Positions 1 to 41,475 of a DNA stretch of 52,761 nucleotides are shown piece after piece. The notes below the pieces were generated by a model. That model saw nothing but the letters and a program-made list of their open reading frames with translations, was not told the origin of the DNA and did not search any database. Source of the DNA: a bacterium (GTDB lineage Bacteria; Actinomycetota; Acidimicrobiia; Spongiisociales; Spongiisociaceae); NCBI GenBank assembly GCA_026710435.1, contig JAPOQZ010000234.1, positions 1 through 52,761 on the forward strand, given 5' to 3'. How positions within the stretch are numbered: the stretch's first letter is position 1; each line of letters begins with the position of its first letter. A program made the position numbers and the translations under genes.

Positions 1-209
1 CGCGACCTTCTATCCCCTGTGCGGGCCGGTTCCGGACAGTATGAACCCTGCCACGGTCCGCTCGACGTCGGAAACGAACCGCCGGTGTATACGGCTATCT
101 ACCATTGTGAAACGAGCCTGTGACAGATACAGCCTGCTCGTAGCGTTGGTCGGTTCCGGTTCGGCTCATCAAGCCCGGAACGCAAGCGAAACAGAGATAC
201 AGGACACTA
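1..209 (-). repeat. R3 repeat, contig-edge copy (left)
   Basis: Bases 22-209 are the reverse complement of 52574-52761 with only two mismatches that I can find (about 99% identity over 188 bp). Bases 1-21 have no partner because the other copy ends at the contig end. The inner boundary is a TA (208-209) followed outward by GTGTCCTGTATC read on the minus strand. That TA is part of the TAG stop of the higA gene. The outer end is not visible. A divergent complete copy lies at 41474-41805. Confidence 0.85.
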
Positions 210-515
210 GGAGCCTGCGGCCACAGCTGTGGGTTCGAGGGGCTCGACGTTGATCCGGTCTTCGTTGGCGCGTGCCTGGGCGAGGTCGTAGTACGTCTGG
301 AGACGCATCCAGAACTCGGCGCTGGACCATCCGACCTTCTCGAAGCGGATCGCCATCTCCGGTGAGATCCCGCCGCGGCCGTTGAGGACACGGGAAAGGG
401 TGGGGCGGGTCACACCGAGGATCCGTGCTGCTTCGGTGACGGTGAGACCCTCGGCCTCGATGCAGTCCTCTCTGACGGTGCCACCAGGATGTGGGGGGTC
501 TTTCATCATGGGCAT
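207..515 (-). CDS. higA: HigA-type antitoxin (XRE-family HTH)
   Basis: This 102-residue protein is the antitoxin of a HigBA module. It would bind and neutralise the HigB mRNA interferase and repress its own operon through a helix-turn-helix. The HTH is visible at about residues 24-45 (LTVTEAARILGVTRPTLSRV), followed by the family's NGRGGISPEMAIR stretch and a C-terminal DLAQAR helix. It lies 12 bp after the toxin gene, in the usual toxin-first order. A second ATG at residue 3 or 4 (MMKDPPHPGG) could be the real start, since many relatives begin there. Its stop codon TAG (207-209) is made by the end of the R3 repeat, so the C-terminus may have been altered slightly by that insertion. The family call is firm. 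Confidence 0.9.
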   Translation of the reverse strand: MPMMKDPPHPGGTVREDCIEAEGLTVTEAARILGVTRPTLSRVLNGRGGISPEMAIRFEKVGWSSAEFWMRLQTYYDLAQARANEDRINVEPLEPTAVAAGS

Positions 516-527
516 AGATGTTCGCTC

Positions 528-810
528 CTAATTGTGGTAGTCGAGGAGGTCCACGTCGTAGACGTGGACTCCTTCCATCCGGAAGACGATCCGCCAGTTA
601 GCGGAAACTCTGATGCTCCGGAGTCCTTCCATGTTGCCTTTGAGTGAGTGGAGCCGGTATCCGGGAAGGTCGAGGTCTGAGGGTTTGGTAGCTGCCTGCA
701 GGGTGGCTACCACTCGGGCGATCCGGTCGGCGTGAGTGGCGTTGCCCCGGTGGTAGTTGCCGCGTTGGTGTGCCCTTCGGAGCCCCCGATGCCGGTAGCT
801 CTCTATTCAC
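528..810 (-). pseudogene. higB: HigB-type toxin, start codon frameshifted
   Basis: HigB is a RelE-fold ribosome-dependent mRNA endonuclease of about 92 residues. The full homologous frame runs 806-528 (92 codons plus stop) and reads IESYRHRGL at its beginning and GYRLHSLKG, NWRIVF and YDVDLLDYH later, matching the family from end to end. It begins with ATA, however, and is preceded in frame by TGA. The nearest start, GTG at 808-810, is one base out of frame; removing one A would give M-I-E-S-Y-R-H-R-G-L. The only in-frame start is an internal GTG (711-713) giving 61 residues without the N-terminal helices. The toxin is therefore probably dead or mis-assembled here. Use of ATA as a start is possible but rare. 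Confidence 0.75.
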
Positions 811-921
811 CACCGCTTATCGTAGCATGTAATAAGACAGATACCGTCACCGGGTGGGCTCTTCGGTAGTGCGATGCACCGCCTCCGGGTTAGCGCGCTG
901 CGGCATCGCTGAACCAAACCG

Positions 922-1596
922 TCACATCCACATCCCGAAGTGGAGTCCATTCTTGTGGTGTAACGGGGGGTGATGGTCCTGTGATTTGGGTGACCATCGT
1001 GCCTCTCCTGACCGGGCTGCGGTCAGCACCACGAACTCGAACGCCAACCGGACTGTCGGATTAACGTGGGTAGCCTCCCGGACCTTGTCGACAGCAGCCG
1101 CAACTTCACGATGCGGCAGCGCGCGGTGGTGCTTCTGGCGGCGCTCCTGTTTGGGGAGAGCGGCCAGCACCGTGTCACCTGCCGGGTTGTCCTGGCGATA
1201 CCCTTGGGCCATCGTCCATCTCATGACTCTGGCGACCCGCTGCCGGACCCGTCGGGCTGTCTCTGGTTTGGCATTCCATATCGGAGACAGACAGTCCATG
1301 ACGTCAGCTGTTGTGATCTCATCCACCCGCATCGAGCCGATAGCCGGCAGCAGATAGGTCCCGAGGCCGGACCGCCAATCATCAACGGTTGTGCTGTTCT
1401 TCCACCTACCCGCGTGCAGAGCGATCACCGCCTCGCCGGCGGTCGCGAACGTCGGAACTGCCCCGGAACGTAACAAGGTGGGGTCGCCGTAAGTGTCCCC
1501 CTTGGCGTCCCACAATACGGTGAAACTACCAGAACCAATCTGGGAAAGCGGGCGACAAGGCGCTGGTTGGTGAGGGATCACCTCAGGGCCGACCAA
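922..1596 (-). pseudogene. Tyrosine-recombinase integrase remnant
   Basis: A fragment of a phage or island integrase of the P4/IntA type, which recombines attP with a tRNA attB. The central part (about residues 50-180) looks like the SAM-like core-binding domain (WRSGLGTYLLPAIGSMRV, RRVRQRVARVMRWTMAQG, NPAG). It is followed by the start of the catalytic domain with the first catalytic arginine in LTAARSGEAR. Homology stops near residue 200 and the last 24 residues are unrelated, so the H-x-x-R and nucleophile Tyr motifs are gone. The N-terminal arm-binding domain is also missing and the only start is TTG. Intact relatives are around 400 residues. It starts 72 bp past the 3' end of tRNA-Arg, the classic integrase position, so it marks a decayed element. 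Confidence 0.8.
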
Positions 1597-1667
1597 GGTC
1601 TACAAAGTACCTGACTACCTGGGGGTTCAGGGCAGTATGAACCGATACGAAACGGCCGGAAACGGTG

Positions 1668-1740
1668 CGCCCGCGGCAGGATTCGAACCTGCGACCTACC
1701 GCTTAGGAGGCGGTTGCTCTTTCCCCTGAGCTACGCGGGC
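1668..1740 (-). tRNA. tRNA-Arg (anticodon CCT)
   Basis: On the minus strand the 73 bases fold as a standard cloverleaf: acceptor GCCCGCG/CGCGGGC, D arm GCTC...GAGC, anticodon arm ACCGC-CTCCTAA-GCGGT with anticodon CCT (reads AGG), and T arm GCAGG-TTCGAAT-CCTGC. The 3' CCA is not encoded. The integrase remnant downstream suggests this gene was used as an attachment site. Confidence 0.95.
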
Positions 1741-2082
1741 CGGATGCGTGCACGAACCTGGTGGAGCGACGCTTTCCCTACCGATGGTAGCGGGGTTGGG
1801 AACTCGGGCAGTTTTCCGGCAGTGTTCGGAGGGCTTCATCCTCCCGCCCTGGATCGATCATTGAATGACATCAGTCGATGGCTCATCCGGGGTGACGACA
1901 CACACGATTGCGTGGGTGGTGATAGCGATGTGCTACGTGCACCACGAGGAGGCGCCGCTGATGCCTAGGGCCAGGATGACCGGCTCTCAGCCATCCGCTG
2001 ATTCCCCGGATCCGCAAGGAGAGTGGAGGAGTCGAGTCCGTGGGATTATGGTCTATGTCAGGATTCCCACCGGAGTGGCTCG
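1741..2082. other. Intergenic region, no gene recognised
   Basis: This 342-bp stretch lies between the divergently placed tRNA-Arg and the CDP-alcohol transferase-like gene. Short open frames exist but none has a convincing start or a recognisable product. It presumably holds the promoters of both flanking genes; I see no clear operator, riboswitch or repeat. Confidence 0.4.
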
Positions 2083-2667
2083 ATGAGCGGCAATGTCACC
2101 CATCAAGGCGTGGTGATCGACCGGGCGCTCGTTGCCGACCTGCTGACACTCGCGCGCTTGCTAAGCGCGCCGCTCCTACTCTGGTTAGTGGCTACCAGCA
2201 GCCTGGACGTGGCTGTAGTGGTCCTGGGATTCGCCTGGTGCACCGACTTCTTCGACGGCAGGTTCGCCAGGTCGGCGCCTCGGGACACGATCCTCAAGGA
2301 GTGGGATCTGCGGGCCGACGCATGGTTGGCGGTCGCTTTGGGTACCGGCCTCGGTTTCAGCGGACTGATATCTTGGTGGTTGTTGGCGCCGGTAGCGGGG
2401 GTCGTGTTCGTGGGGTCGGTTCTTTTCAGCAATCCGGCGGCCGTCATGGTCGGCACCGGCTATCTGTTCGGAGTGTTTCTCTGGTCGGTAATGCAGTGGG
2501 GCGGGCTGTGGTGGCTTCCGTCCGTTTACCTGGTCTTAGCACTTCTAGCCAATTGGAGGAGGTTCTTCTGGGTCATCCTCCCGGCCTGTTGGCAAGGTCT
2601 CGTGTCTGCTGCTCAGGGCAAGCGTCAACGAGGTAGGTCCCTCGTGCTCGAGGACTGGGTGGACTGA
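2083..2667 (+). CDS. CDP-alcohol phosphatidyltransferase-like membrane protein
   Basis: A 194-residue protein with several hydrophobic segments. It resembles the CDP-alcohol phosphatidyltransferase family, which joins a CDP-diacylglycerol-type donor to an alcohol in the membrane. The signature is D-x2-D-G-x2-A-R-x8-G-x3-D-x3-D. Here I can place D55, D58, G59, A62-R63, D75 and D79 (DFFDGRFAR then WDLRAD), but the second glycine of the motif is not present. The metal-binding aspartates are kept, so activity is plausible, but the substrate cannot be told. The ATG at 2083 was chosen because it follows a purine-rich CGGAGTGG; upstream starts would add an unrelated tail. It stands alone, followed by Bpa on the same strand. 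Confidence 0.65.
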   Translation: MSGNVTHQGVVIDRALVADLLTLARLLSAPLLLWLVATSSLDVAVVVLGFAWCTDFFDGRFARSAPRDTILKEWDLRADAWLAVALGTGLGFSGLISWWLLAPVAGVVFVGSVLFSNPAAVMVGTGYLFGVFLWSVMQWGGLWWLPSVYLVLALLANWRRFFWVILPACWQGLVSAAQGKRQRGRSLVLEDWVD

Positions 2668-2835
2668 GTGCGAAGCCCCGGCCTGTGGCCCATTGATTGG
2701 CAGGTGTGCCGGGCAGAACTTTGGCGGCCTCGGCCGGACGCGACGGCCAGTTATCCGAGACGGATGGATTAAGGTGTTTATCCGCAGGGTGGGACTGGCC
2801 AGCCCTCGGGATTGCTTCAACATGGAGAGAGTCCG

Positions 2836-3318
2836 ATGATCGAAGATATGACGGAACGCAGTATGGAGTCACCAGAAGGTACGGTGATGGTGGTCGAGTC
2901 GACGCCTGTCGAAACCGATCTGCCGGATCGTATCGAGGAGCCCGCCAAACTGCTCCGGATCGCCTCGATGACCCGTTCGATGCTGGAGGAAGTTCGCACC
3001 GCCACTCTTGACGAGGAGGGCCGGGTCCGCCTGAGAGCTGTGTTCGACGCGTCGCTCGAGCAATTGCACAACGTCCTCACCGACGACCTCCGCGCCGAGC
3101 TGACAGAAGTATTCGTGCCGCTGGACAGCGAGATCCCCACCCAGGCCGAACTCCGGGTGGCCCAGGCCCAGTTGATCGGCTGGCTCGAGGGATTATTCAA
3201 CGGGATCCATGCCGCCATCATGACGCAGCAGATGGCAGCGCGCTCCCAGTTGAAGCAGATCATGAGCAGCAAGCAGCCCGACGACCGGGCAGACGCGGCC
3301 GGCGGCCTTTACCTTTAG
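2836..3318 (+). CDS. bpa: Bacterial proteasome activator Bpa/PafE
   Basis: This 160-residue protein matches the ATP-independent activator of the actinobacterial 20S proteasome (Mycobacterium Rv3780/PafE, 174 aa). The family forms a dodecameric ring that docks on the proteasome and feeds it unfolded proteins. The helical core is visible (KLLRIASMTRSMLEEVR, then RAVFDASLEQLHNVLTDDL and QAQLIGWLEGLFNGIHAA). The protein ends in GGLYL, the position where the family carries its GQYL docking tail; the Gln is replaced here and Tyr-Leu kept. The ATG at 2836 follows GGAGAGA. The gene stands apart from proteasome genes. Its TAG stop (3316-3318) is the first TAG of an R1 repeat. Confidence 0.9.
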   Translation: MIEDMTERSMESPEGTVMVVESTPVETDLPDRIEEPAKLLRIASMTRSMLEEVRTATLDEEGRVRLRAVFDASLEQLHNVLTDDLRAELTEVFVPLDSEIPTQAELRVAQAQLIGWLEGLFNGIHAAIMTQQMAARSQLKQIMSSKQPDDRADAAGGLYL

Positions 3319-3414
3319 GAGGGTGCTTTACAGTGACGTCTGCTCGGGCCCGCCCGCACAGGAGTCGTGCCGGCGACTTGGCAGGCCGCTGGTGGATTGC
3401 TCAGCACTCTCCTA
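3316..3414 (+). repeat. R1 palindromic element, copy 1 (at bpa stop)
   Basis: The 99-bp element is bounded by TA on both sides (3316-3317 and 3413-3414). The left end TAGGAGGGTGCTTTAC is more diverged than in other copies and the right end reads TTGCTCAGCACTCTCCTA. It starts at the TA of the bpa TAG stop codon, in the sense orientation, so the bpa mRNA would end in its hairpin. Confidence 0.85.
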
Positions 3415-8202: not shown

Positions 8203-8406
8203 TAACCCCTGACTCTTCGATTCCTCACACACCACCGATGAAGGGTCACTTCAAGCCTGTTTTCGTGGCGTCGCTCGCATTCAGGCGACGGGTGAATGTG
8301 GCGCCGGGCTGAGGCGGGACTATCGAAAGGCCGTAATCCGTGGTCAGAAGCTCATGTCCCGCACCCCTTTCGCCCAGTACGAACCCCCGCACGAGAACCA
8401 GGGCTA
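8203..8406 (+). repeat. R2 repeat, copy 1 (at Gfo/Idh gene stop)
   Basis: A 204-bp element bounded by TA (8203-8204 and 8405-8406). Its right half matches the R2 copy at 32217-32422 (shared stretches GGTCAG.AGCTCATGTCC and CCAGTAC.AACCCCCGCA) and its left half matches the copy at 35213-35417 (CTTCAAGCCTGTTTT). The terminal inverted repeats are of the type TAGCCCTGATTCTT. The right TA is the TA of the minus-strand gene's TAG stop. Confidence 0.85.
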
Positions 8407-9705
8407 GCTGTTCGTCATCGGCAGCCGGCCACTGGTTTCCGTGGACCGGATCCGGTCGACGTCAACGGTTTCACCCGCGAGGCGGGCCCGTTCTGCTGTG
8501 AAGGCGAGCAGGTGGCTCTCGTACCACGTCTCGCCGGAGGTTTGGGTGGGAGTTGGTGTGTCGAGCGAGTTGAGGAATGATTCGATCAGACCGGTGTCGC
8601 CACCTCCGTGGCCCCGGCCGGGAGTGGGAACAGGGATCCTTTCCGTCGCGCCACCGAGATGGTCGGTAAACTCGATCCGGGAGTCCGCTCCGAAGGTCGC
8701 CAACACCGATCCCCGCGTCCCGTGGTAGCGCGCTGTCCGTGCCTGGTAGGACGCGTGGCCATTCATCAGCAATGCAGCCGTCGCTCCGGTCGATGTCTGC
8801 ATCGTTACGGTCTGGTGGTCGACAACGTCGGAGCCTGAGCGGTATACACAGCGTCCGTAGGGTCCTTCGCGTAGAGCCAGTATCCGCCCCTCAGGGGTCA
8901 GGTCGTCGGTGATCGCATGGACGGGCCATCCCGTCAGGTCCGGGTTTAGGTAGAGGCGCCGGGCGTCGAACGGGCAGGCCGCCGCGGCCGGACACGGGGC
9001 TGTACATCTGGAGGCGGCGCCCTCGGGAGCGTTTTCGGGGCGGAAATGGAGGAGGGAGCCGAAGGAGTGGAGCTTCGTTACCCTCCCAGGATCGGGCGCG
9101 GTCGCCAGGTTCCATGCCAGGATGTCGAAGTCGTGGCAACACTTCTGGACGATCATCGGCGTGGATGAGGCCGCCCTGCCCCAGTTGCCTCTCACAAAGC
9201 TATGGGCCATGTGCCAGTACGCGACATCCTCGCGATGCTCGATGGTTACCAGCCGACCGAGCCGTCCAGATCCGATCAACCGGTTGAGGGTCCTGAAGAA
9301 CGGGGTGTAACGCAGCACATGTCCGATGGTGAGCGTTCCGGGGCTAAGCCGGGCCGCCTCCAACACCAGGCTGCAGTCTTGGAGCGTATGGGCCGCAGGC
9401 TTCTCCAGCAGCACGTGCAGGCCCCGCTCGAGCGCCGCGATCGCCGGAGCGACATGGTGCCGGTCGGGAGTGGCGATGACACATATGGGTGCTAGTTGGG
9501 CGTCCATCATCTCCTCCCAGTCCGTGAAACGGTGAGAGGGTGTAATGGCGTGTTCCTCGGAGAACACCCGACGCCTCTGACGGTCCGGCTCGGCGACCGC
9601 CACGAAGCGCAGCCGGTCCGGGTGACGCGATGCGTAGGCGCCGTATACGTGCCGCCCCCGTTGTCCGGCGCCGAGCAGGATCGCGCTACGTACCACCCGC
9701 GGCAT
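8404..9705 (-). CDS. Gfo/Idh/MocA-family oxidoreductase
   Basis: A 433-residue NAD(P)-dependent sugar or cyclitol dehydrogenase-like protein. The Rossmann motif G12-A-G-x-x-G17 opens the protein, the family's catalytic EKP lies at 101-103, and KCCHDFD near residue 190 supplies the catalytic Asp/His region. Between the domains is a cysteine-rich insert (CTAPCPAAAACPFD, followed by ARRLYLNPD) found in a subset of the family, which may bind a metal. The substrate is unknown. It is the last gene of a possible minus-strand unit with the IMPase-family gene and cimA (35-bp gap to the former). The stop codon TAG coincides with the R2 element end. Confidence 0.85.
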   Translation of the reverse strand: MPRVVRSAILLGAGQRGRHVYGAYASRHPDRLRFVAVAEPDRQRRRVFSEEHAITPSHRFTDWEEMMDAQLAPICVIATPDRHHVAPAIAALERGLHVLLEKPAAHTLQDCSLVLEAARLSPGTLTIGHVLRYTPFFRTLNRLIGSGRLGRLVTIEHREDVAYWHMAHSFVRGNWGRAASSTPMIVQKCCHDFDILAWNLATAPDPGRVTKLHSFGSLLHFRPENAPEGAASRCTAPCPAAAACPFDARRLYLNPDLTGWPVHAITDDLTPEGRILALREGPYGRCVYRSGSDVVDHQTVTMQTSTGATAALLMNGHASYQARTARYHGTRGSVLATFGADSRIEFTDHLGGATERIPVPTPGRGHGGGDTGLIESFLNSLDTPTPTQTSGETWYESHLLAFTAERARLAGETVDVDRIRSTETSGRLPMTNS

Positions 9706-27613: not shown

Positions 27614-27718
27614 TAGGAGGGTGCTGAGCAATCCACCAGCGGCCTGCCAACCGCTGGCATAATTCCTGGGCTGGCGGGCGGCAGGCCCGAGCAATCGTCA
27701 TTGTTCAGCACCCTCCTA
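27614..27718 (-). repeat. R1 palindromic element, copy 2 (at menC-like stop)
   Basis: A 105-bp element with TA at both ends (27614-27615, 27717-27718). On the minus strand it starts TAGGAGGGTGCTGAACAAT and ends ATTGCTCAGCACCCTCCTA, a perfect basal stem. The TA at 27717-27718 belongs to the TAG stop of the minus-strand menC-like gene, and the element lies in sense orientation downstream of it. Confidence 0.92.
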
Positions 27719-28771
27719 TGGTGTGACTAACTCTGAGCGCACTACATGGTCGGACGCAGTGCCGGAAAACGGGTCAACCCGGATCCCAAGACCGGGATCC
27801 TCGGGAAGCGTGTGGTGTCCGGCGGCCAGATCCCAGGGATGATCCGAAACGTCGGCTGCCAGCATCCAACGGGTCGGTACTAGATCGGTGAACTTCACCC
27901 CTTCCAGCGACGCGATCGCCAGCGCGTGGGACCGTCCTACCGACGTTTCAACCAAGCCGCCCACCTTCACGTCGATTCCGGCCTCCCTAGCCCGTTCGGC
28001 GATCCGAAGGACGCTCGATGTCCCGAGGAGCCCGGGTTTGAGGCTCACCATGTCGGCACATCGTCTCTCTATCACGCGGGTAGCGCGGTCCGGAGTGGTA
28101 ACAGACTCGTCCAGACACAACGGTGTATCGATCCGGGATCGCAGTTGCTGGTGCCCCCCGAGGTCATCTCCATCCAGGGGCTGTTCCAGGTAGCTGAGAG
28201 AGAGGGTGTCGACCGCTTCGAAGATCGGATCACCCATCTGGTAGCTGCCGTTGGCATCAGCGGAGATCGCCAGGCCGGGAAACTGTCGGCGAACAGCCTG
28301 CAGGTGTGGCAGGTCCTGGCCGGGTGCGATCTTGATCTTCACCTCCAGGATTCCGGCCTCGACGGCCTGGTTCACATGTTCCACCGTTTCGGCGGGGGTT
28401 CGTTTCAGGCCGATTGCCGCACAGGCCCGGATGGATCGGGGAGTTCCACCGACGAAGGTCCATAGGGGCACCCCGGCCCGCCGGGCTTCCAGATCCTTCC
28501 TGGCTTGATCGATGGCTGCGCGTGCCGATGGGGGAAGTCCTCTCGTGTGGCCCGCCGGCGCTGGTCTCCCGTTGGACTGAAGAGCGTTCCACACGTCGGC
28601 TACCGTCTCGATGGTGACTCCCGGATACGGAGCTGCCTCACCCCAGCCGGTCAGGCCGTCCTCGGTGATGGAGACGAGCACGATGCGTCGCTCTCCAACT
28701 GCTCCCCGGGCATTGGATAGAGGGCGAAGCAGGGGTATACATAGCTCGGTCAGACGCATAGCCGTCGGCAT
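27716..28771 (-). CDS. menC: Enolase-superfamily enzyme, o-succinylbenzoate synthase-like
   Basis: A 351-residue enolase-superfamily protein of the muconate-lactonising subgroup. The catalytic residues are visible: KIKI with the K-x-K pair (near residue 163), metal ligands in SADANGSY (Asp), YLEQPL (Glu) and CLDES (Asp), and the second lysine in SLKPGLLG. The spacing and the KIAPGQD stretch look most like class II MenC, which dehydrates SHCHC to o-succinylbenzoate in menaquinone synthesis. N-acylamino-acid racemase activity is common in this group and cannot be excluded. The ATG at 28771 fits the family start. No other men gene is nearby. Its TAG stop is the end of an R1 element. Confidence 0.8.
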   Translation of the reverse strand: MPTAMRLTELCIPLLRPLSNARGAVGERRIVLVSITEDGLTGWGEAAPYPGVTIETVADVWNALQSNGRPAPAGHTRGLPPSARAAIDQARKDLEARRAGVPLWTFVGGTPRSIRACAAIGLKRTPAETVEHVNQAVEAGILEVKIKIAPGQDLPHLQAVRRQFPGLAISADANGSYQMGDPIFEAVDTLSLSYLEQPLDGDDLGGHQQLRSRIDTPLCLDESVTTPDRATRVIERRCADMVSLKPGLLGTSSVLRIAERAREAGIDVKVGGLVETSVGRSHALAIASLEGVKFTDLVPTRWMLAADVSDHPWDLAAGHHTLPEDPGLGIRVDPFSGTASDHVVRSELVTP

Positions 28772-28848
28772 CAAGGCAGGATACTCCACGATCAACCACG
28801 GGACGGCGATACCGAAACGGCTGTGCATAGCGTGAACACGCCCCAGGG

Positions 28849-28943
28849 GGGTGGATGGGAAACGGGTTCTTGGTGGGCCAGACGTCCGCTGACCAGGTAG
28901 TTTACCATCGGGTAACTGGCCGGCAGGGAGTTTCCCACCACCC
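28849..28943. repeat. Inverted repeat between menC-like and icd
   Basis: GGGTGGATGGGAAAC (28849-28863) is matched by GTTTCCCACCACCC (28930-28943), a 14-bp inverted repeat with a single bulge enclosing 66 bp. The enclosed part has its own partial palindrome around AGTTTACC/GGGTAACT. It lies directly beside R1 copy 3 in a divergent promoter region and does not resemble R1, R2 or R3 internally. Confidence 0.5.
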
Positions 28944-28946
28944 TCA

Positions 28947-29050
28947 TCGGCGGGTGCTGACCAATGACGATTGCTCGGGCCTTCCGCCCGCCGGACCAGG
29001 ATCAATCCGGCGATTGGCAGGCCGCTGGTGGATTGCTCAGCACCCTCCTA
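28947..29050 (+). repeat. R1 palindromic element, copy 3 (upstream of icd)
   Basis: A 104-bp copy whose right end is intact (CAGCACCCTCCTA, TA at 29049-29050) and whose left end has drifted (TC instead of TA, GGCGGGTGCTGA). The apical stem is CGCCGGA/TCCGGCG, a paired variant of the stem in other copies. It lies in the divergent space between the menC-like gene and icd, 35 bp before the icd start, not at a stop codon. Confidence 0.85.
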
Positions 29051-29085
29051 GGCTCGGGGTCCGGAAGTAGAAAACAGGAGCGTGT

Positions 29086-32216: not shown

Positions 32217-32422
32217 TAGCCTTGATTCTTCATGTTTCCAGACACACCCACGTAAGCGTGCCACATCAACGACGTCATCGGGACCGGGCCGGGCTTCACC
32301 AGACGGGCGAAGGTCGCGCCGGTCCGAGACGGGACTAGCGAAACACGATGATCCCTGGTCAGGAGCTCATGTCCTACGCCCCGCTCGTCCAGTACAAACC
32401 CCCGCATCAATAATCAGGGCTA
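32217..32422 (+). repeat. R2 repeat, copy 2 (at sdhB stop)
   Basis: A 206-bp element bounded by TA (32217-32218 and 32421-32422) with terminal inverted repeats TAGCCTTGATTCTTCATG and, reversed, TAGCCCTGATTATTGATG. The right TA is the TA of the sdhB TAG stop. The left TA sits 18 bp ahead of the SCP2 start codon, so the element fills the whole sdhB-SCP2 spacer. Confidence 0.9.
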
Positions 32423-33187
32423 GTGCTGCCCGCGTAGTCTTCGGTTACGGAACTTCGCCTGCAGGTAGTCGCGGTTCATCAGGGCGATGTTGTCCAGCGA
32501 GATGTCCTTGGGACAGGCCTGCTCGCACTCGCCATGGTTGGTACAAGATCCGAAGTACTGCTCCATGGTCTCCACCATCCTCTCGACCCGCCGCCACCGT
32601 TCCGGTTGTCCCTGGGGGAGGAGGTTGAGGTGCGCCACCTTCGCGGCGGTGAACAGTTGGGCGGCACTGTTGGGACAGGCGGCGACGCAGGCGGCGCATC
32701 CGATACAGGCAGCCGCGTCCATCGCGGCGTCGGCGGTTTCCTTGGGAACCGGGATCAGGTTGGCTTCGGGCGCCGATCCGGCCGGGGCGCTGATGTAGCC
32801 TCCGGCTTCGACGATCCGGTCGAAGGCGGACCGATCCACCACTAGGTCCCGGACGACAGGGAAAGCCGTGGCCCTCCAAGGCTCGATCACTATCACGTCA
32901 CCGTCGTCGAACTCGCGCATGTGCAGTTGGCAGGTGGCGGTGCTCGCCTGGGGACCGTGGGCCCGTCCGTTGATCATGAGGCCGCAGGAACCGCATATGC
33001 CCTCGCGGCAGTCATGATCGAAGGCGATGGGTTCCTGGCCCGCGTTCATCATCTGCTCGTTCACGATGTCGAGCATCTCCAGGAAGGACATATCCGAACT
33101 AATGTCAGCCGCTTCGTAGGTCTCGAAGCGGCCTTCGGAATCGGGACCCTTCTGGCGCCATACCCGCAAAGTGAGATGCATAGCCAT
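32420..33187 (-). CDS. sdhB: Succinate dehydrogenase iron-sulfur subunit
   Basis: The 255-residue subunit that passes electrons from the flavoprotein to quinone. The N-terminal [2Fe-2S] ferredoxin domain has C60-x4-C65-x2-C68 ([11 protein letters not shown]) and C86. The C-terminal domain has the [4Fe-4S] motif [13 protein letters not shown] near residue 156 and the [3Fe-4S] cysteines in [13 protein letters not shown]. The ATG at 33187 follows AGGGAGA, five bases after the sdhA stop, so they are co-translated. The stop TAG is the end of an R2 element. Confidence 0.95.
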
Positions 33188-33192
33188 TCTCC

Positions 33193-35109
33193 CTACTTGT
33201 AGCTGCGTTGGCTGGGTTCGACGTATTCGAAGTGCAGGTCCTCCCGGTACATGGTCGGGGTGTCGCCGTAGCTCCAGTCCCATGCGGCCACGTAGGCGAA
33301 CTCCTCGTCATTGCGCTTCGCCTCGCCATCCTCCGTCTGGTGCTCGGTCCGGAAGTGACCTCCGCACGATTCCTCCCGGTGGAGCGCGTCCCGGCACATC
33401 AGGGCGGCCAATTCGAAGAAGTCTTTGACCCTGCCGGCTTTCTCGAGTGACTGGTTGAGGGAGCGACTGTCGCCGAGTACCAGGAGATCCGTATCGAGCT
33501 CCTGCCTTAAGGCTGCGATTTCCCCGATGGCCTGCTCGAGGCCGGCCGCGGTGCGTTCCATCCCGCAGTGCTCCCACACTATCTTCCCGAGTTCACGGTG
33601 AAACCAGTCGACGGTGCGGGTTCCGCCGATCGATAGGGACCGTTTCACGTCGGACCTAACCGCGGCCTCCGCGTCCCTGAAGGCGCGATCACCGGTAGGC
33701 ACGGTGGATTCTCCCAGGAGCGGAGCAAGATAGTCGCCGATCGTGTAAGGAACCACGAAGTAGCCGTCCGCCAATCCCTGCATGAGGGCCGAGGCGCCCA
33801 AGCGGTTGGCGCCGTGGTCGGAGAAGTTTGCCTCGCCGAGAGCGTAGAGGCCGGGGATGGTCGTCATCAGGTTGTAGTCGACCCACAAACCTCCCATCGT
33901 GTAGTGAACGGCCGGGTATATGCGCATCGGTTGCCGGTAGGGGCTCTCGCCGGTGATCCTCTGGTACATGTCGAGCAGGTTTCCGTAGCGCTGCCGCACG
34001 GCTTCCTCGCCGAGCCGGTCCAGCGCCCCTGCCAAGTCGAGGTACACGCCGTTGCGCAGCGGGCCGACGCCCTTTCCGCTGTCAACCTCCAGCTTGGCTG
34101 CCCTCGACGCCACATCGCGTGGTACCAGGTTCCCGAAGGCGGGGTATCTTCTCTCGAGGTAGTAGTCCCGTTCATTCTCAGGTACCTCACCTGGGGCGCG
34201 GCTCTCCTCCGACCGGAGCGGCACCCAGATGCGACCATCGTTGCGCAGCGATTCCGACATGAGGGTCAACTTCGACTGGAACTCGTCGGAGGCCGGGATG
34301 CAAGTGGGATGGATCTGGGTGTAACACGGGTTGGCGAACAGGGCCCCCTTGCGGTGAGCCCTCCAGATCGCGGTGACGTTGCACTTCATCGCATTGGTGG
34401 ACAGGTAGTAGACGTTGCTGTAACCGCCGGTAGCGAGCACGACCGCGTGGCCCGAATGCGACCTGACCTCGCCGTCGAGCAAGTCGCGGATCACGATGCC
34501 GACGGCCCTTCCGTCCTTGAGAACCACATCCAGCATCTCGGTCTGTGTATACAACTCCACGGTCCCCAGATCGACCTGGCGCATCATGGCTTGGTAGGCG
34601 CCGAGTAGGAGTTGTTGACCGGTTTGCCCTCGGGCGTAGAAGGTCCGCGAAACCTGGGCGCCCCCGAACGATCGGTTGGCGAGCAGACCTCCGTACTCGC
34701 GGGCGAACGGCACTCCTTGAGCAGTGCACTGGTCGATGATCTCCACCGAGAGCTGAGCCAACCGGTATACGTTCGACTCCCGCGAGCGGTAGTCCCCGCC
34801 CTTGACCGTGTCGTAGAACAAGCGGTAGATGGAGTCGCCGTCGTTCTGGTAGTTCTTGGAGGCGTTGATGCCCCCTTGGGCGGCGATGGAGTGGGCCCGG
34901 CGAGCCGAGTCGTGGTATGTGAAGGCCTTGACCCGGTAACCGAGTTCGGCCAGGGTTGCCGCTGCCGAGGCTCCCGCAAGCCCGGTACCCACCACGATGA
35001 CCGTGAATCTTCTCTTGTTAGAGGGATTGACCAGCTTCATCGAGAACCTGTGGTCGTCCCAATGTTCCTGGATCGGTCCGTCCGGAATCCTGGCGTCGAG
35101 TGTCAGCAC
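33193..35109 (-). CDS. sdhA: Succinate dehydrogenase flavoprotein subunit
   Basis: The 638-residue catalytic subunit oxidising succinate to fumarate. The FAD Rossmann motif is [20 protein letters not shown] (about 37-56), the FAD-linking His lies in [14 protein letters not shown], and the substrate loop includes [13 protein letters not shown] and [15 protein letters not shown], with [19 protein letters not shown] following. The GTG start is preceded by AGGAGG. It lies between sdhC (306 bp upstream, with an R2 element inside the gap) and sdhB (5 bp downstream). Confidence 0.95.
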
Positions 35110-35212: not shown

Positions 35213-35417
35213 TAGCACCGGTTCTTGGTGCGCGTGGCTTGTCCGAGCGCATGGGTAGCCGTGGCAGACTCATGACCTGCAAGGGCGGCGGACTTGACAA
35301 GACCGGCGACTTGAAAAGGCTCTTCACCCTTGGGGTGCATGTGAGAGAGGCCACAAAAACAGGCTTGAAGGGGCCTTTCATAGGTGGGTGTCTCAGGAGC
35401 ATGAAGAATCAGGGCTA
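35213..35417 (-). repeat. R2 repeat, copy 3 (at sdhC stop)
   Basis: A 205-bp element with TA at 35213-35214 and 35416-35417. On the minus strand it begins TAGCCCTGATTCTTCATG and ends GAACCGGTGCTA. Its first half matches the left half of R2 copy 1 (CTTCAAGCCTGTTTTTGTGG), so relative to the upstream gene it is flipped compared with copies 1 and 2. The TA at 35416-35417 belongs to the sdhC TAG stop, placing the hairpin between sdhC and sdhA. Confidence 0.87.
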
Positions 35418-36155
35418 GCGGATGATACCGACGGCCACGCCCACCGGGACCGACAGGAATCCCAGCGCGACCAGGGTCGAGATGGCGTTGGCGAACGTTC
35501 TCCGGAACCGGTTGAAACGTGGGTTGTTGATCCCGAGGCTCTGGAACAGGCTCCAGCATCCGTGCCATATGTGGAAGGCTAGAGCCACCTGCGCAGCAAC
35601 GTAGAAGACCCAGACCGGCCAGCGGCTGAGGCTTGACACCAGGTTCTCGTATACCATGCCCCGCTCGAATCCGGGATTCACGGCTGGAACCCCGACCGTC
35701 AGATCCGCTAGGTGCCAGATGAGGAACAGGAGCACGATCACGCCGCTCCAGCGCATCGTGCGGCTGGCGTAGTTGGCGGCCAGGTAGTGTCTGGGGGACT
35801 GGTACTTGGTCGCGCGGGCCGCTCGGTTGCTCCTTGTCAGTGCCCAGGCAGCGTGAATGTGGATAGCGAAGGCGGCGGCGAGGGGTATCCGCACCGCCCA
35901 GAGAACCATGGTACGGGGGAACAGCGGAGTGCCGAGATCACGTAGACCCTCGCCGTACTCGTCGATCCGGAAGACTCCGTTGTGCGCACCTTCGAAGGCG
36001 TGCAGGTTCCCGATCATGTGGCCGAGCACGAAGCCCAGCAGCACGACTCCGCTGATAGCCATGGCGTACTTCTTGCCGGTGTCGCTGCGATAGATACCGG
36101 TCAACCATGACAGAGGATGTGTCCGGCGCCTCTTCTCGGGGATGGTGAGTCGCAT
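35415..36155 (-). CDS. sdhC: Succinate dehydrogenase cytochrome b subunit
   Basis: The 246-residue membrane anchor of the five-helix, di-heme (B-type) succinate dehydrogenase. Five hydrophobic segments are visible (GVVLLGFVLGHMIGN, IPLAAAFAIHIHAAW, GVIVLLFLIWHLADL, WVFYVAAQVALAFHIWHG, ISTLVALGFLSVPVGVAVG). The heme-ligand histidines sit in the first four: GHMIGN, HIHAAW, WHLADL and HIWHG. It is the first gene of sdhCAB on the minus strand. The TAG stop is the end of R2 copy 3. Confidence 0.93.
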   Translation of the reverse strand: MRLTIPEKRRRTHPLSWLTGIYRSDTGKKYAMAISGVVLLGFVLGHMIGNLHAFEGAHNGVFRIDEYGEGLRDLGTPLFPRTMVLWAVRIPLAAAFAIHIHAAWALTRSNRAARATKYQSPRHYLAANYASRTMRWSGVIVLLFLIWHLADLTVGVPAVNPGFERGMVYENLVSSLSRWPVWVFYVAAQVALAFHIWHGCWSLFQSLGINNPRFNRFRRTFANAISTLVALGFLSVPVGVAVGIIR

Positions 36156-36255: not shown

Positions 36256-36295
36256 CACAACACTGTAATTGCATAAGTGTAGTGGGGAGGGGGTC

Positions 36296-36646: not shown

Positions 36647-38023
36647 ATGGGATCGCAGGAGCTTTCTTCAGGGGCGGCGCGTGTAGCTGCACTTTGCATC
36701 GCCGTCGTGATGACGGCGCTCATCGTGGCTTGTTCCGACGACCCGGCCGACTTAACCGAGGAACCCACCTCAAGTGCCGCCACCACCACCTTGAGCCCAC
36801 CGAGCACGACGGGGGTCGTAACCACTGAAGCGATTCCGACTTCCACAGTGCCAACCCCGACGACGGCGCCGTTCCCCGGTCCGGTTGTCCTGCTGTATCT
36901 GGAGGATATGCAGGGCTTGGCCGTGCGGATCGGCGAGCTGGTGCTGGACATGAGGGCCGCGAACAACGACTGGGACAACCGTGTCAAGACGTACCAGGAA
37001 ACCGAAACGGCACTGGAGAATGTCGAGCGCACGGCTCTGGCGCTGCGTGGCGATATCGGGCTGATCGAACCTCCTCCTGACCGCGGGCTCCCGGTGGAAC
37101 ACCAGACGGCGTGGGTGGCGGTAGGCCAGATGGCGGACGCAGCGGTGGACTCGCTGGCGGGACTGCGCTCGCCTGACACCGGCGAGCGTCGCCAGGCCGC
37201 ACTGGGGCAGTTCCTCGTCGCCTACGAGCGTTACGCCGCTGCGTTCGGCCGGATCGTCGAGATCGTCGGAGTCGCAGCGAACGTATCGTTGCCGTCCGTC
37301 GCAACCACCAGCGTTCCCACGACCGAGGCCACGACGACCACGACGCAGGCGTCCGCCACGACGACCACCACGGCGGCGGCCACCACCAGCACCACGGAGG
37401 CGTCCGATACCACAAGCACCACGGAGGCGTCCGATACCACAAGCACCACCGCGGCGGCGGCCACCACCAGCACCACCGAAGCACCCGGCACCGGCACGGA
37501 GACCGTACCTCCCGCACCCGACATCTATGAGGTCCTTACCGAGAACCCTTCCCCCTTCCAGGGTGCAGACCGTACCTGGCTGACGGTACGCGTCGATGCG
37601 GGCGCCACCAAGTCCGAACTGGCGCAGATCGGTAACCGCTTGGCGTTCGAGTACCGGGTTGCCCAGCAATACCAGGCCCTGGCCATCTACTTCGTGCACT
37701 TTCCCGAAGGTGTGGACACGCTCGGTACATGGATCCATGCTCCGTACGGTGACTGGACCCGGGCGGCGGAGGCGTCCAGGGGCGACTACACGCAGCACCA
37801 GGTTGTGGATCGCACGGTCGAGAAGGACTGGACACTGTTGCCAACCGACGCCCAGGTCGACTTGTACCGTAGGTACCGGGAGTACAAGGCCAACCTCCTG
37901 GACTCCGGGGATACCGTCCCACCCGACGACGAGTTGATTCCGGTGGTTGCCCAGGAGTTCGAGGTTACGACCGCGGAACTCCGGGGTGCGGTTGAAGCCT
38001 GGGAGGCCTGGGAAGCGAGATAG
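36647..38023 (+). CDS. Thr-rich lipoprotein of unknown function
   Basis: A 458-residue protein. Residues 10-29 form a lipoprotein signal ending in the lipobox L-I-V-A-C (Cys29). A short Thr-rich stretch (30-70) leads to a helical domain (about 75-210), then a Thr/Ser/Ala-rich linker (about 215-285, TTTTTQASATTTTT-like), and a C-terminal domain of about 165 residues (DIYEVLTENP to WEAWEAR) with conserved-looking aromatic residues. I do not recognise either folded domain. The linker DNA contains two perfect tandem copies of a 27-bp unit. The linker would span the cell wall and be a target for glycosylation. tatA follows on the same strand. Confidence 0.75.
   Translation: MGSQELSSGAARVAALCIAVVMTALIVACSDDPADLTEEPTSSAATTTLSPPSTTGVVTTEAIPTSTVPTPTTAPFPGPVVLLYLEDMQGLAVRIGELVLDMRAANNDWDNRVKTYQETETALENVERTALALRGDIGLIEPPPDRGLPVEHQTAWVAVGQMADAAVDSLAGLRSPDTGERRQAALGQFLVAYERYAAAFGRIVEIVGVAANVSLPSVATTSVPTTEATTTTTQASATTTTTAAATTSTTEASDTTSTTEASDTTSTTAAAATTSTTEAPGTGTETVPPAPDIYEVLTENPSPFQGADRTWLTVRVDAGATKSELAQIGNRLAFEYRVAQQYQALAIYFVHFPEGVDTLGTWIHAPYGDWTRAAEASRGDYTQHQVVDRTVEKDWTLLPTDAQVDLYRRYREYKANLLDSGDTVPPDDELIPVVAQEFEVTTAELRGAVEAWEAWEAR
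37394..37447 (+). repeat. Perfect tandem 27-bp repeat in lipoprotein linker
   Basis: A 27-bp unit starting ACGGAGGCGTCCGATACC (37394-37420) is repeated exactly at 37421-37447. It encodes a 9-residue Thr/Ser-rich unit. In-frame gain or loss would change linker length without breaking the protein. Confidence 0.85.
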
Positions 38024-38119
38024 CGCGCGTATTCCGGCTGGGACGGGCTGAGAATCCAAACCTCTGGCGGCTAGGCCACTACGAGTGGTATCATCCGCTC
38101 TGCAAGGAAGGGAGAACGG

Positions 38120-38344: not shown

Positions 38345-38390
38345 CGGCTCAGTCGCCCGAAATTTGACAGCCGAGCTTCGGTATAGGTTC

Positions 38391-38495
38391 TAGGAGCGTG
38401 CTGAGCAATCCACCAGCGGCATGCCAACCGTCGGCATTACTCCTGGGCTGGCGAGCGGCAGGTCCGAGCAATCGTCATTGTTCAGCACCCTTCTA
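38391..38495 (-). repeat. R1 palindromic element, copy 4
   Basis: A 105-bp copy with TA at 38391-38392 and 38494-38495. It lies between the convergent tatA and DUF2342 genes, 20 bp past the DUF2342 stop and in sense orientation to it. Both arms carry substitutions (GGAGCGTGCTGA on the left, TCAGCACCCTTC on the right). Confidence 0.9.
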
Positions 38496-38515
38496 GCGCG
38501 GTATACGCAATCCCC

Positions 38516-39616
38516 TCAGCCAAAGGGGTCGTCCAGGATTACCCGGGCCGCCCAACCGGTGGCATCCTCGAGTTCAACGGGACTGGGTAGGTTCTCCGGT
38601 CGTTGCCAGATCCGGTGTACCGCTTCGTCGCCCCAACGGTTTCGTACCTCAGCGCAGAAGGCTGTCACCGGGCCACCTGAACCCGCTGCGCTCTCGATTC
38701 TGAAGAGGCCACCCAGCGCGGAGGGAGCGCTCCGGTTCGCATGGCGAGCGGCCATGGCCGTCCTTATCGAGGGCAGATCAGGCAGTAGCGCCACCGCGGC
38801 ACGATCCACCAGATACGAACCGTATCCTTCGAGTGTTGCGATCAGGGTCCTGATCGGTCCGAGGCTCTCATCTTGGAGAGGGCCTCCGAACAGCCCGGCA
38901 AATCCTCCACCCTGGGCCAGTTTCTCTTCGAGTTTGTCCGGGTCTGCCATTTCCTCGTACCAGTGAGCCATGGCTTCGGCATCCGGTTCGACTGCCCCGA
39001 CCAGATTCTTGGACTGGTCGACCAGATAAGTCCGAACCCACGCCCGTCCGACTAGCGCGTAGTGCACTACTTCGTGCATTGCGGACCACAACCGAACTTG
39101 CCGCGCATCCAGGCCATGGTCGTCAGCAAAGGTTTCCAGGTTCGATAGCGGAACGATGATCCCGGCCGCCTCGGCAGTGGGTAACCCGGTGTCGAACAGC
39201 CCGAGCACTTGCTCGCTCATCATGCCGACCATCGCGCCCATCTGCATGCCCAGCAGGGCAGGTCCGAGCGGCTTCAGGATCGAGTCCAGGGTGCCGGCCC
39301 CCGGTGCGGCGTCCAGCCTGGCTGCTAGCGGCTCTACAAGGTAGGAGAAGGACCGCAGGTTGCGCTCCGCCCATCCGCGACGATCAACCAGAACCACTTC
39401 GGTCGTCGGGTCGGAGGGGATTCCGGTCGCCTGCGGCACATGGATCTGGGCGAACCGGGCGAGTTCGAGATACTCATCGGCGAGCCAGGGATCGATCGGT
39501 GCAACTGGTCCGGACAGGTGGTCAGCCAACTGGGAAGCCAAGGCCCAATTGATCCGACCCGGTTGGTTGAGCAGTTTCATCAGCTCGTTCAGAAGGTTTC
39601 GTTCCGGCATCGTCAA
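38516..39616 (-). CDS. DUF2342 zinc-metallopeptidase-like protein
   Basis: A 366-residue protein of the DUF2342 family, found in actinobacteria and noted as associated with coenzyme F420 biosynthesis. A zincin-type H181-E-V-V-H185 motif lies in LWSAMHEVVHYALVG, and a Gly/Met-rich segment near 120-140 (ALLGMQMGAMVGMMSEQVLG) may be membrane-associated. Its biochemical role has not been established to my knowledge. No F420 synthesis gene is in this window, but a flavin/F420-type oxidoreductase gene occurs at 50541. It is 41 bp downstream of the HtrA-like gene on the same strand. Confidence 0.82.
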   Translation of the reverse strand: MTMPERNLLNELMKLLNQPGRINWALASQLADHLSGPVAPIDPWLADEYLELARFAQIHVPQATGIPSDPTTEVVLVDRRGWAERNLRSFSYLVEPLAARLDAAPGAGTLDSILKPLGPALLGMQMGAMVGMMSEQVLGLFDTGLPTAEAAGIIVPLSNLETFADDHGLDARQVRLWSAMHEVVHYALVGRAWVRTYLVDQSKNLVGAVEPDAEAMAHWYEEMADPDKLEEKLAQGGGFAGLFGGPLQDESLGPIRTLIATLEGYGSYLVDRAAVALLPDLPSIRTAMAARHANRSAPSALGGLFRIESAAGSGGPVTAFCAEVRNRWGDEAVHRIWQRPENLPSPVELEDATGWAARVILDDPFG

Positions 39617-39657
39617 GTCCCCTTAGGTTGACCCGAGGCTACACCGATGGGAGAGCG

Positions 39658-40914
39658 TCACGAGGGGTACATGTCCAGTGTCATCTGGATGTCCAACGTC
39701 TCGCCGTCCCGTCTCAGAGTGACTGTCATACGATCCTCGGCCCGGTACTCCCGCAGCAGGGCGATCAGCAACGGCATGGACCTTACCGGCTCCCCGTTCA
39801 AGGCTACGATGACGTCGCCCCCCTCTGCCCCGGCCTCGCCTATGGCGGAGTCCTCCAAGAGGCTCACTATCTCGACCCCCGCAGGGGACTCCACGCCGTT
39901 CTCGAGGTCCTCGAATGCGGAACTTCCCTGGATCCCGAGAAACGCGTGACGAACCTCTCCTGCGGACATCAGGTCGTCCACGACCCTTTCGACCAGGTTC
40001 ACCGGTACGGCAAAGCCCAGACCCTCGGCACCCACGTCGCTCAGGCCGATGGCGGTGGTGATCCCGAGCAAGCGTCCGTGAATGTCCAGGAGGGCGCCTC
40101 CGCTGGAGCCGCGGGTGATCGGAGCGTCGGTCTGCAGGAGCCCGTACAGGGCGACGCCGGTTCCGAATTCGGTAACCAGGGTTCGGTTGAAGGCCGAGAT
40201 GACGCCAACGGTGACGGATGGCCCACCATCGAGACCCAACGGATTGCCCACCGCAATAGCTTGTTCACCTGTGCGCAGGCCTTCCATCGAACCGAATTCG
40301 ATCGGTACCAATCCGTCGGTCTCCAGCTTCAGCACGGCGAGGTCCATCAGCGGATCGGTACCCACCAGTTCGGCCGGATAGTGGAGACCATCGGCCATGA
40401 TGACCTTTAGCGTGTCGGCACCGTCGACCACATGGTCATTGGTCACGATGAATCCGTCTGAGCGCACCACCACCCCGCTTCCCGATCCCGCAAACCCGAA
40501 TTCCTCGTTGAGACTCTGAACGGTCACGATGGACGGAATCGCGCGGGAGGCCACGTCGCTCACCAGGTGGGTGGATGGCAGCACGGGGACGGTGGTTGCG
40601 GCCGGCGGCGCCGCCTCGCCGGCCTCAAGTTGGGAGTTGATCGGAGCGGTGGCGATTGGAACGGGCTCCGCCGATGCCTCGGTGGCCGGGACCTGCACCA
40701 TTTCTCTTATCTCCACTATCTCCGTGACACGGACCTCCTCTCGTTCGAAAGTACCTGAGAACCAGAGGACAAGGAGGGTGCCAACCGTCGCCAGAAGGGC
40801 TGAGCCGAGTGCGATGGCAAGGGAGGTGCTTCGTGTGACCAACTTGTGGTTGTAGGGTCCGACGCTATCGTTTCCGCCGTCGCCCGCTGATGGCGGCTGA
40901 TCCACGATGCTCAT
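39658..40914 (-). CDS. HtrA/DegP-like serine protease with PDZ domain
   Basis: A 418-residue membrane-anchored protease for envelope quality control. One membrane helix is at about 27-53 (SLAIALGSALLATVGTLLVL). The trypsin-like domain has the triad His161 (TNDHVV), Asp191 (DLAVLK) and Ser271 (GSSGG), and a PDZ domain fills about residues 315-410 (FLGIQGSSAF, GDVIVALNGEPVRSM). The start at 40914 puts a short cytoplasmic head before the helix. The moaE start lies only 13 bp away on the other strand, so their promoters must overlap the opposite coding regions. Confidence 0.92.
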   Translation of the reverse strand: MSIVDQPPSAGDGGNDSVGPYNHKLVTRSTSLAIALGSALLATVGTLLVLWFSGTFEREEVRVTEIVEIREMVQVPATEASAEPVPIATAPINSQLEAGEAAPPAATTVPVLPSTHLVSDVASRAIPSIVTVQSLNEEFGFAGSGSGVVVRSDGFIVTNDHVVDGADTLKVIMADGLHYPAELVGTDPLMDLAVLKLETDGLVPIEFGSMEGLRTGEQAIAVGNPLGLDGGPSVTVGVISAFNRTLVTEFGTGVALYGLLQTDAPITRGSSGGALLDIHGRLLGITTAIGLSDVGAEGLGFAVPVNLVERVVDDLMSAGEVRHAFLGIQGSSAFEDLENGVESPAGVEIVSLLEDSAIGEAGAEGGDVIVALNGEPVRSMPLLIALLREYRAEDRMTVTLRRDGETLDIQMTLDMYPS

Positions 40915-40927
40915 ACACTGCGAGTCT

Positions 40928-41374
40928 ATGCAAGAGCCGAACTTATCCATACCTGGCCTGCGCAGGGTCCGCGTCTCCCCCTTACCCATCGACACGGGAG
41001 CGCTTCTAGCGGAGGTGTCCGGTCCTATGAGTGGGGCCATCGCCCTCTTCCTCGGCACGGTCAGGGACCACTCTCCCGGCAAGCAGGGGATCACCCACCT
41101 GGAGTACGAGGCGTACGAGCGTCACGTCGTCGCCAAGATCGAGGCGATAGTCGACGAGGCGACCACCCGCTGGCCGATCAACAGTCTGGTAGTGGAGCAC
41201 CGGATCGGGAGGGTCGAACTCGCCGACGCCTCGGTTGCGGTTGTGGTTGCGTGTGCCCACCGGGCTGAGGCATTCGCCGCCGCCCGACACCTGATCGACG
41301 AACTCAAGGTCCGCGCTCCGATCTGGAAGAAGGAATGCTGGCCCGGTGGCGAGGAGTGGTCGGCCGGTTCCTAG
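40928..41374 (+). CDS. moaE: Molybdopterin synthase large subunit
   Basis: A 148-residue MoaE, which with thiocarboxylated MoaD inserts the dithiolene sulfurs into molybdopterin. The GAIALFLGTVRDHSPGK block, YEAYERHVVAKIEAI, and the C-terminal APIWKKECWPGGEEW with the two catalytic lysines are all present. The ATG at 40928 is the most likely start. moaD and other moa genes are absent from this window. Its TAG stop (41372-41374) is the first TAG of an R1 element in sense orientation. Confidence 0.92.
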   Translation: MQEPNLSIPGLRRVRVSPLPIDTGALLAEVSGPMSGAIALFLGTVRDHSPGKQGITHLEYEAYERHVVAKIEAIVDEATTRWPINSLVVEHRIGRVELADASVAVVVACAHRAEAFAAARHLIDELKVRAPIWKKECWPGGEEWSAGS

Positions 41375-41475
41375 GAGGGTCCTGACCAATGACGATTGCT
41401 CGGTCCTGCCGCCCGCCGACCAGGGATTATGCCGGCGGTTGGCAGGCCGCTGGTGGATTGCTCAGCACCCTCCTA
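41372..41475 (+). repeat. R1 palindromic element, copy 5 (at moaE stop)
   Basis: A 104-bp copy with TA at 41372-41373 and 41474-41475. The left TA is that of the moaE stop. The right TA is shared with the start of an R3 element, so the two families abut. Confidence 0.92.

Follow-up and report, generated by a model that had tools for sequence, protein, structure and literature searches.

Short CTAG-preferring repeat elements on TAA and TAG stop codons of a GC-rich bacterial genome

Described repeat systems and the contig under study

The insertion sequence IS630 is said, going by the title of a 1991 paper of Tenzen and Ohtsubo, to prefer the dinucleotide TA within CTAG. Here we describe short repeats with a similar target in contig JAPOQZ010000234.1 of assembly GCA_026710435.1, a Spongiisociaceae genome (Actinomycetota; Acidimicrobiia), where the families designated R1, R2 and R3 (with its partner R4) lie with their terminal TA on the stop codons of genes; the window, meaning the whole stretch of DNA that was analysed, is this entire contig of 52,761 bases, from a genome of 4.9 Mb in 270 contigs. 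The closest described systems are outlined as far as the available portions of the cited papers present them. RUP is a 107 bp repeat of about 108 copies with ends like those of IS630-Spn1 and a TA target (PMC2229807), and RUP, like BOX, is found between convergent genes more often than expected (PMC3049150). IS5 duplicates Py-T-A-Pu, with CTAG in 15 of 24 listed sites (PMC5493358), and the miniature inverted-repeat transposable element (MITE) MITEPsy1, whose target is CTAG or YTAA (Y, pyrimidine), has been ascribed to the IS5-type ISPsy2 (PMC3189936). IS1272, a member of the IS1182 family, replaces stem-loops without the usual duplication (PMC5678879), an ERIC-type unit fused to the 3' end of a gene has been described (PMC2759123), and MITEAba12, a short MITE, carries stop codons in each of its six frames and has a 9-bp duplication (PMC6382973).

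In duplicating TA and in having a CTAG-type target, R1 resembles IS630, and it shares the TA target with RUP; the available portions of the RUP and BOX papers report an excess between convergent genes and do not describe stop codons as a site. R2, which mostly duplicates YTAR (R, purine) and mostly CTAG, is comparable to IS5; the MITEPsy1 end, as given in the part of its source at hand, differs from the R2 end (CCYYGATTCTTCAT). An intact member of the IS1182 family with R1-like ends lies in CTAG in this genome, although the described IS1272 is unlike the TA-duplicating R1. ERIC and Correia elements are, like R1 and R2, short palindromic repeats flanked by TA (PMC2229807, in the portion available), but the ERIC-type gene fusion (PMC2759123) removes the stop and lengthens the protein, whereas the present insertions restore the stop without shifting the last residue. 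MITEAba12 differs from R1 and R2 in its 9-bp duplication, and its gene fusion is a truncation in the account available. No report of a habit of insertion at stop codons was found in the literature searched, of which subscription papers were mostly beyond reach.

The sample comprised 60 fetched stretches of the genome and the window (61 records; 1,033,983 bases, about 1.03 Mb), and 1018 genes were called in it with a purpose-written codon-usage gene caller. The caller missed moaE, calling an antisense open reading frame (ORF) instead, and moaE was added by hand for the ortholog comparison. Guanine-plus-cytosine (GC) content was 64.6% over the first 449 kb sampled, and the genome was taken as 65% GC. 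Copies of R1 or R2 were scored as intact if TA was present at both ends; R1, being palindromic, is counted on both strands among the 127 intact hits. A second set comprised the 30 highest-ranking matches in the whole genome for R2 and likewise for R1, with 40 of 224 and 40 of 394 first-look candidates scored; 43 of these 60 lay outside the sample, and 34 of the 43 were intact.

Elements on stop codons and the rebuilding of the stop

R1, nearly palindromic and about 105 bp long, has the ends TA-GGAGGGTGCTGA...TCAGCACCCTCC-TA, and its end pattern has 303 matches per strand in the whole genome at up to two mismatches, while R2 is about 206 bp long, with 51 matches in the sample. The R3 end is GTGTCCTGTATC; older R3 copies pair with R4 ends to give elements of about 330 bp or longer, and the recent ones extend past the ends of contigs, as they do at both ends of the window. 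Short length, inverted ends, many copies and a short target duplication are features that R1 and R2 share with MITEs, which supports the proposal of an earlier note on this DNA that they are small non-autonomous elements; the partner end is missing for 15 of the 146 TA-preceded R1 ends in the loci scanned. The window holds eight R1 copies, three full and one partial R2 copies and three R3/R4-type copies, making the count of about 14 given in the earlier note a fair one, and the seven gene stops that it had placed on a repeat's TA do lie there (Table 1).

Across the sample, 20 of 78 intact R1 and R2 copies are on a stop codon, 51 are intergenic and 7 touch coding DNA, with shares on stops of 10/56 for R1 and 10/22 for R2. 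Intact copies from outside the sample add 9 of 34 (R2 5/16, R1 4/18), bringing the combined figure to 29 of 112; this genome-wide share is lower than that of the window, which is thus an outlier with seven of about 14. Counted by gene, an R1, R2 or R3 end coincides with the stop in 31 of 826 scored genes, which by codon are 29 of 219 for TAG, 2 of 61 for TAA and 0 of 546 for TGA. Exact coincidence of gene end and element end is seen for 32 genes of the sample, against 16 genes that stop 3 to 26 nt short of an element end. On the far side of the element a TAA or TAG is completed in 35 of 35 rows (R1 listed twice), where target preference alone would put A or G on that side in 114 of 127, and one R1 copy (L050:7217-7321) occupies the common TA of two convergent stops, both of which are restored.

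The way in which the stop is rebuilt differs between families. Among the 127 intact hits, C precedes the TA in 99 and G follows it in 104, and by site they divide mainly into CTAG (80), TTAG (16), CTAC (10) and CTAA (6). Where the site is not CTAG, 23 of 25 R1 copies retain the element's G and C beside the TA, which argues that R1 duplicates TA, rules out a 4-bp duplication for this family, and implies that its G turns any TAA or TAG into TAG. R2 is flanked by two identical 4-mers in 25 of 38 intact copies, seven of these pairs being other than CTAG (TTAA 4, CTAA 2, TTAG 1); it therefore mostly duplicates YTAR, so that the original stop is copied whole and can stay TAA. The earlier note had described the stop as a TA completed by the element's first G, which fits R1 but mostly not R2, where the stop lies mostly inside the 4-bp duplication. 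Its proposed TA target likewise agrees with the TA duplication of R1, but the preferred target is CTAG or YTAR and not any TA. In other frames, genes stop inside R1 at offsets of 13 nt (four genes), 20 nt (two) and 61 nt (one), and inside R2 at an offset of 8 nt (one).

Related genomes indicate that the stops were there first. Orthologs were accepted at identities of at least 55% and coverage of at least 60%, which excluded weaker relatives in the genomes G001 and G008. The relatives search gave one genome of the same genus, G001, which has no match to the R1 end with one mismatch allowed. Clear orthologs of 130 genes were present in about 0.7 Mb of G001 DNA, and six of these genes carry an element at the stop (moaE, sdhB, sdhC, the menC-like gene and a pair of genes in L012). 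Each of the six orthologs lacks the element and stops at the corresponding residue, five in TAG and one in TAA, against 41 of 124 other orthologs ending in TAA or TAG (Fisher p = 0.0018). The elements thus entered existing stops and left the protein unchanged, which is what the earlier note had expected such element-free loci to show. In a comparison of sdhB and sdhC over six of 14 relatives (forward-orientation loci), sdhC ends in TAG or TAA at the position of the R2 site in all six, and moaE of G008, a genome of a second genus, has TAG at the same residue.

CTAG sites are occupied at 9 of 66 stops, at 8 of 61 positions within 60 bp downstream of a stop, at 17 of 171 far intergenic positions, at 8 of 120 positions within 120 bp upstream of a start, and at 6 of 526 coding positions. 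It is very probable, in our judgement, that these are CTAG- and YTAR-preferring MITEs whose coding insertions are hardly ever tolerated and whose survivors are found between genes or on TAA and TAG stops that insertion rebuilds. R1, R2 and R3/R4 would be mobilised in trans by transposases that favour the palindrome CTAG and its YTAR variants. Since target sites inside genes would hardly ever be tolerated at 65% GC, surviving copies would sit between genes or on TAA or TAG stops, chiefly ones that follow a C or T. R1 and R3 would bring a G beside the TA and make any such stop TAG, R2 would mostly copy YTAR and so duplicate the whole original stop, and insertion should be nearly neutral because the protein is unchanged either way. 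Recurrence of the pattern in G008, with five of nine intact copies on stops, and the balanced orientation of R2 at stops agree with this account. The suggestion that stops are a safe harbour in a GC-rich genome is right in outline. Such insertion would be a simple route by which dense repeat families settle in a compact GC-rich genome without change to proteins, and the same pattern is predicted wherever CTAG-preferring elements are active. With 31 of the 280 TAA and TAG stops in the sample being element ends, transposition would fix stops as TAG, and R1 would add a strong predicted hairpin there.

The excess at stops and competing explanations

The earlier note would have been contradicted by stop overlap no higher than at intergenic TA sites, an outcome that did not occur. 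Occupied TA dinucleotides comprise 19 at stops and 49 intergenic, against 260 and 4273 free ones, an excess of about sixfold (odds ratio 6.4, p = 9e-9). Its phrase "far more than chance" holds in that comparison but shrinks to about twofold when the four-base context is matched. For CTAG alone there is no stop excess over nearby downstream sites (9/66 versus 8/61), and in a first count the figures were 9 of 40 at stops versus 58 of 389 at all intergenic CTAG sites (p = 0.25). Because context matching reduces the excess and coding CTAG is so seldom occupied, target preference together with purging from coding sequence accounts for the greater part of the pattern and leaves a modest residue.

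Several results weigh against this account. With context matched, 20 copies are observed at stops where 9.4 are expected from all intergenic sites (z 3.85), and 20 of 30 where 13.8 are expected from sites within 60 bp downstream of stops (z 2.4), and this residual excess comes mostly from CTAA/TTAG, TTAA, CTAC and ATAG sites, not from CTAG. The duplication of R2 is not uniform, the two 4-mers being unequal in 13 of 38 copies, nine of them one transition apart. Outside the genus some comparisons fit poorly. The sdhB stop is TGA in a fifth locus as well as in four genomes of another genus; in G008, the counterpart of the higA-like gene, at 64% identity, stops with TGA and two residues further on, and a partially matching relative (63%) of L019:4388-7384, a gene that ends on R2, is 56 residues longer. 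Finally, an age split of R1 puts 4 of the 28 younger and 6 of the 28 older copies on a stop; the sample is too small to decide, and it gives no support to retention as the explanation of the residue. The residual twofold excess may nevertheless arise, for example, because a stop keeps its TA under selection as intergenic TAs decay out of the intact set.

A further-reaching possibility, which we consider unlikely, is that the ends and duplications of these MITEs make stop codons a preferred niche, to which they are drawn or in which they survive better beyond any preference for CTAG; about one in nine TAA and TAG stops would then be a transposon end, and stop choice and 3' mRNA structure would be shaped by transposition. 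Specific attraction of elements to stops is possible, and its strict form would have integration drawn to gene 3' ends by terminating ribosomes, transcription ends or a wider stop context. The residue after context matching speaks for this in the present genome and in G008, where 342,614 bases were scanned and 12 R1-like pairs were found, nine with TA at both ends; five of these nine are on stops against 1.35 expected from matched contexts, in a small sample whose stretches were partly chosen for holding such repeats. So do the sharp spike of genes ending exactly on an element end and the R2 copies of the sample, four of which lie within 60 bp downstream of a stop in addition to the ten on one. 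Against it stand the similar CTAG occupancy at stops and just downstream, the first CTAG count, and the shares on stops outside the first sample (R2 5/16, R1 4/18), and we judge true targeting of stops to be quite improbable.

Selection on the RNA fares worse. Three window R1 copies fold as RNA at -54 to -64.5 kcal/mol, with z of -4.0 to -6.9 versus shuffled sequences, so that the mRNA would have a strong predicted hairpin starting at the stop. If this hairpin stabilised or terminated the mRNA, copies at stops could be kept by positive selection, and an effect of ERIC elements on mRNA stability has been reported (PMC2229807, in the portion available). R2, however, is about equally common at stops in its two orientations (7 copies against 8, counted by hand), R1 ends without the T-run of an intrinsic terminator, R2 occupies the sdhC-sdhA interval, where a terminator should be harmful, and an Rfam scan of the window at the gathering score found only a tRNA (1668-1740) and no repeat family; selection for the hairpin is accordingly very improbable. 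The least credible explanation is truncation, in which an element hits a coding TA and TA-G creates an earlier stop: it could draw on the eight genes that end inside elements in other frames (seven in R1, one in R2), on the longer G008 relative of L019:4388-7384 and on sdhB of the genome G011 (L109), where an R1-like end inserted near the window's R2 site supplies the last residues (GGY) and TGA, but it is rejected for the six testable genes, whose same-genus orthologs end at the same residue in TAA or TAG, and it sits poorly with the completed stops on the far side in every row, though preference alone would account for most of these. Truncation in a minority of genes elsewhere is possible.

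Candidate transposases and features of the window

Transposase profiles PF13358, PF13586, PF01609 and PF05598 were run on the own genome, and PF13358 and PF13586 also on 15 genomes of the family; the MITEs probably derive from more than one transposase family. The sole DDE_3 (IS630) hit in the genome is a contig-edge fragment on C16, over the cut-off at 35.1 bits, which ends in AACACAGGACAC-TA and so matches R3/R4, R4 being alike over about 25 nt by eye. R3 and R4 thus appear, from these ends, to be IS630 derivatives, and the relation to IS630/Tc1-mariner put forward in the earlier note suits them; for R1 the mover may instead have been of IS1182 type.

An intact element of 1830 bp lies in C-TA-G at C243:3-1832 (within L070, which is C243:1-2568) and encodes a transposase of 543 residues assigned to the IS1182 family by NCBIfam (295.4 bits, cut-off 270). 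It is the sole DUF772 hit in the genome and by that measure a single copy. Compared with the R1 end over the first 14 bases, its ends TAGGAGGGTGGTGT and TAGGAGACTGGTGT agree at 12 and 10 positions; among 26,034 coding TA 14-mers, 4 reach 12 matches. A second R1-like end match within the element, at 1034-1047, falls inside the transposase frame and was taken as chance. This element is the best candidate mover of R1, and R1 may have been moved by an IS1182-type element of this kind: besides the ends and the site, some members of the family are said to target palindromes (PMC5678879, in the portion available). What speaks against it is that the likeness does not extend beyond the first 12 to 14 or so bases (13 and 14 matches over 22), that there is one copy only, and that hybrid copies join R1 ends to R3/R4 interiors.

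In those hybrids (L031:17704 and L037:258) an R1 end is joined to the interior of R4 or R3, which points to IS630 instead. Derivation of R1 from IS630, as for R3/R4, would also agree with the TA duplication in the informative copies and with the CTAG preference that reportedly characterises IS630, but the R1 ends are closer to the IS1182-type element than to R3, and we regard this origin as possible yet doubtful. An origin from an IS5-group element seems unlikely. The R1 end resembles that of MITEPsy1 (GGAAGGTCTGAAAAAGCC), more so in G008 (GGAGGGTGCTGAAAAAGAC), but R1 duplicates TA and not 4 bp, and the presence of an IS1182-type element with R1-like ends lowers the chances of IS5 further.

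For R2, no transposase bearing its ends was found among the DDE_3, DDE_Tnp_1_2 and DDE_Tnp_1 loci scanned. Its duplication, identical 4-mers in the majority of intact copies, corresponds to the 4-bp YTAR duplication of the IS5 group, and by that feature only R2 appears IS5-like. Separately, each of the four G001 and G011 loci read holds an IS5-type element of about 835 bp that has the ends TAGGGCGTGTTCAC and is flanked on either side by CTAG (Table 1). Gene names in the window have Pfam support from HTH_3, BPA, GFO_IDH_MocA, MR_MLE (menC-like), Fer2_3/Fer4 (SdhB-type), Sdh_cyt and MoaE.

Table 1. Repeat elements of the window, with the genes whose stop codons they form, and IS5-type elements of related genomes
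Element	Position	Strand	Gene at whose stop it lies (strand)	Remarks
R3 end (IS630-type end GTGTCCTGTATC)	23..209	-	HTH antitoxin-like (higA-like) gene, 207-515 (-)	Off contig edge; TA+G = TAG stop 207-209
R1	3316..3414	+	bpa, 2812-3318 (+)	TAG stop; far side TAA, so empty site = TTAA
R2	8203..8406	+	Gfo/Idh/MocA gene, 8404-9705 (-)	TAG stop; far side TTAA; flanking 4-mers unequal
R1	27614..27718	-	menC-like gene, 27716-29005 (-)	TAG stop; G001 ortholog TAG, no element
R1	28949..29051	+		One end decayed; off stop
R2	32217..32422	+	sdhB, 32420-33283 (-)	TAG stop; CTAG both sides; G001 ortholog TAA, no element
R2	35213..35417	-	sdhC, 35415-36155 (-)	TAG stop; between sdhC and sdhA; CTAG both sides; relatives compared TAG/TAA, no element
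R1	38391..38495	-		Off stop; 21 bases beyond stop of gene 38516-39610 (-)
R1	41372..41475	+	moaE, 40907-41374 (+)	TAG stop; G001 and G008 orthologs TAG, no element
R4/R3-type	41476..41754	+		Left TA common with moaE R1 copy; matched stretch only, right end about 41820 by model extrapolation
R1	45878..45981	+		Off any called stop
R1	49121..49226	-		One end decayed; off stop
R1	52471..52575	+		Right TA common with R3 end that leaves contig
IS5-type	G001 L162:1484-2318			
IS5-type	G001 L165:939-1771 or 1821			
IS5-type	G001 L166:940-1771			
IS5-type	G011 L161:928-1772			

Some elements adjoin one another. Recent R3 copies and neighbouring R1-type ends have a TA in common in 10 of the 13 best R3 copies showing their start, at the contig ends of L035, L027, L041, L034, L059, L051, L052, L036 and L050 and at 52471-52761 of the window; many of these junctions are at contig ends. 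As element ends are themselves CTAG sites, they may attract further insertions. Other palindromic repeats of about 105 bp have R1-like ends and a different interior (GAGAAACCCCC) and were seen at L034:7459-7561, L033:9142-9249, L024:9464-9566 and L041:7126-7255, three of these four being flanked by TA. Short TAG-rich tandem units (GTTAGGT, CTAGTTG) are found just after stops in relatives where the window has R1 or R2, namely in G001 at L135 (menC-like, moaE) and L104 (sdhB) and in G008 at L160 (moaE). Tandem repeats with 27-base spacing also occur at 37305-37492 of the window, inside the ORF at 36647-38023, with the frame kept.

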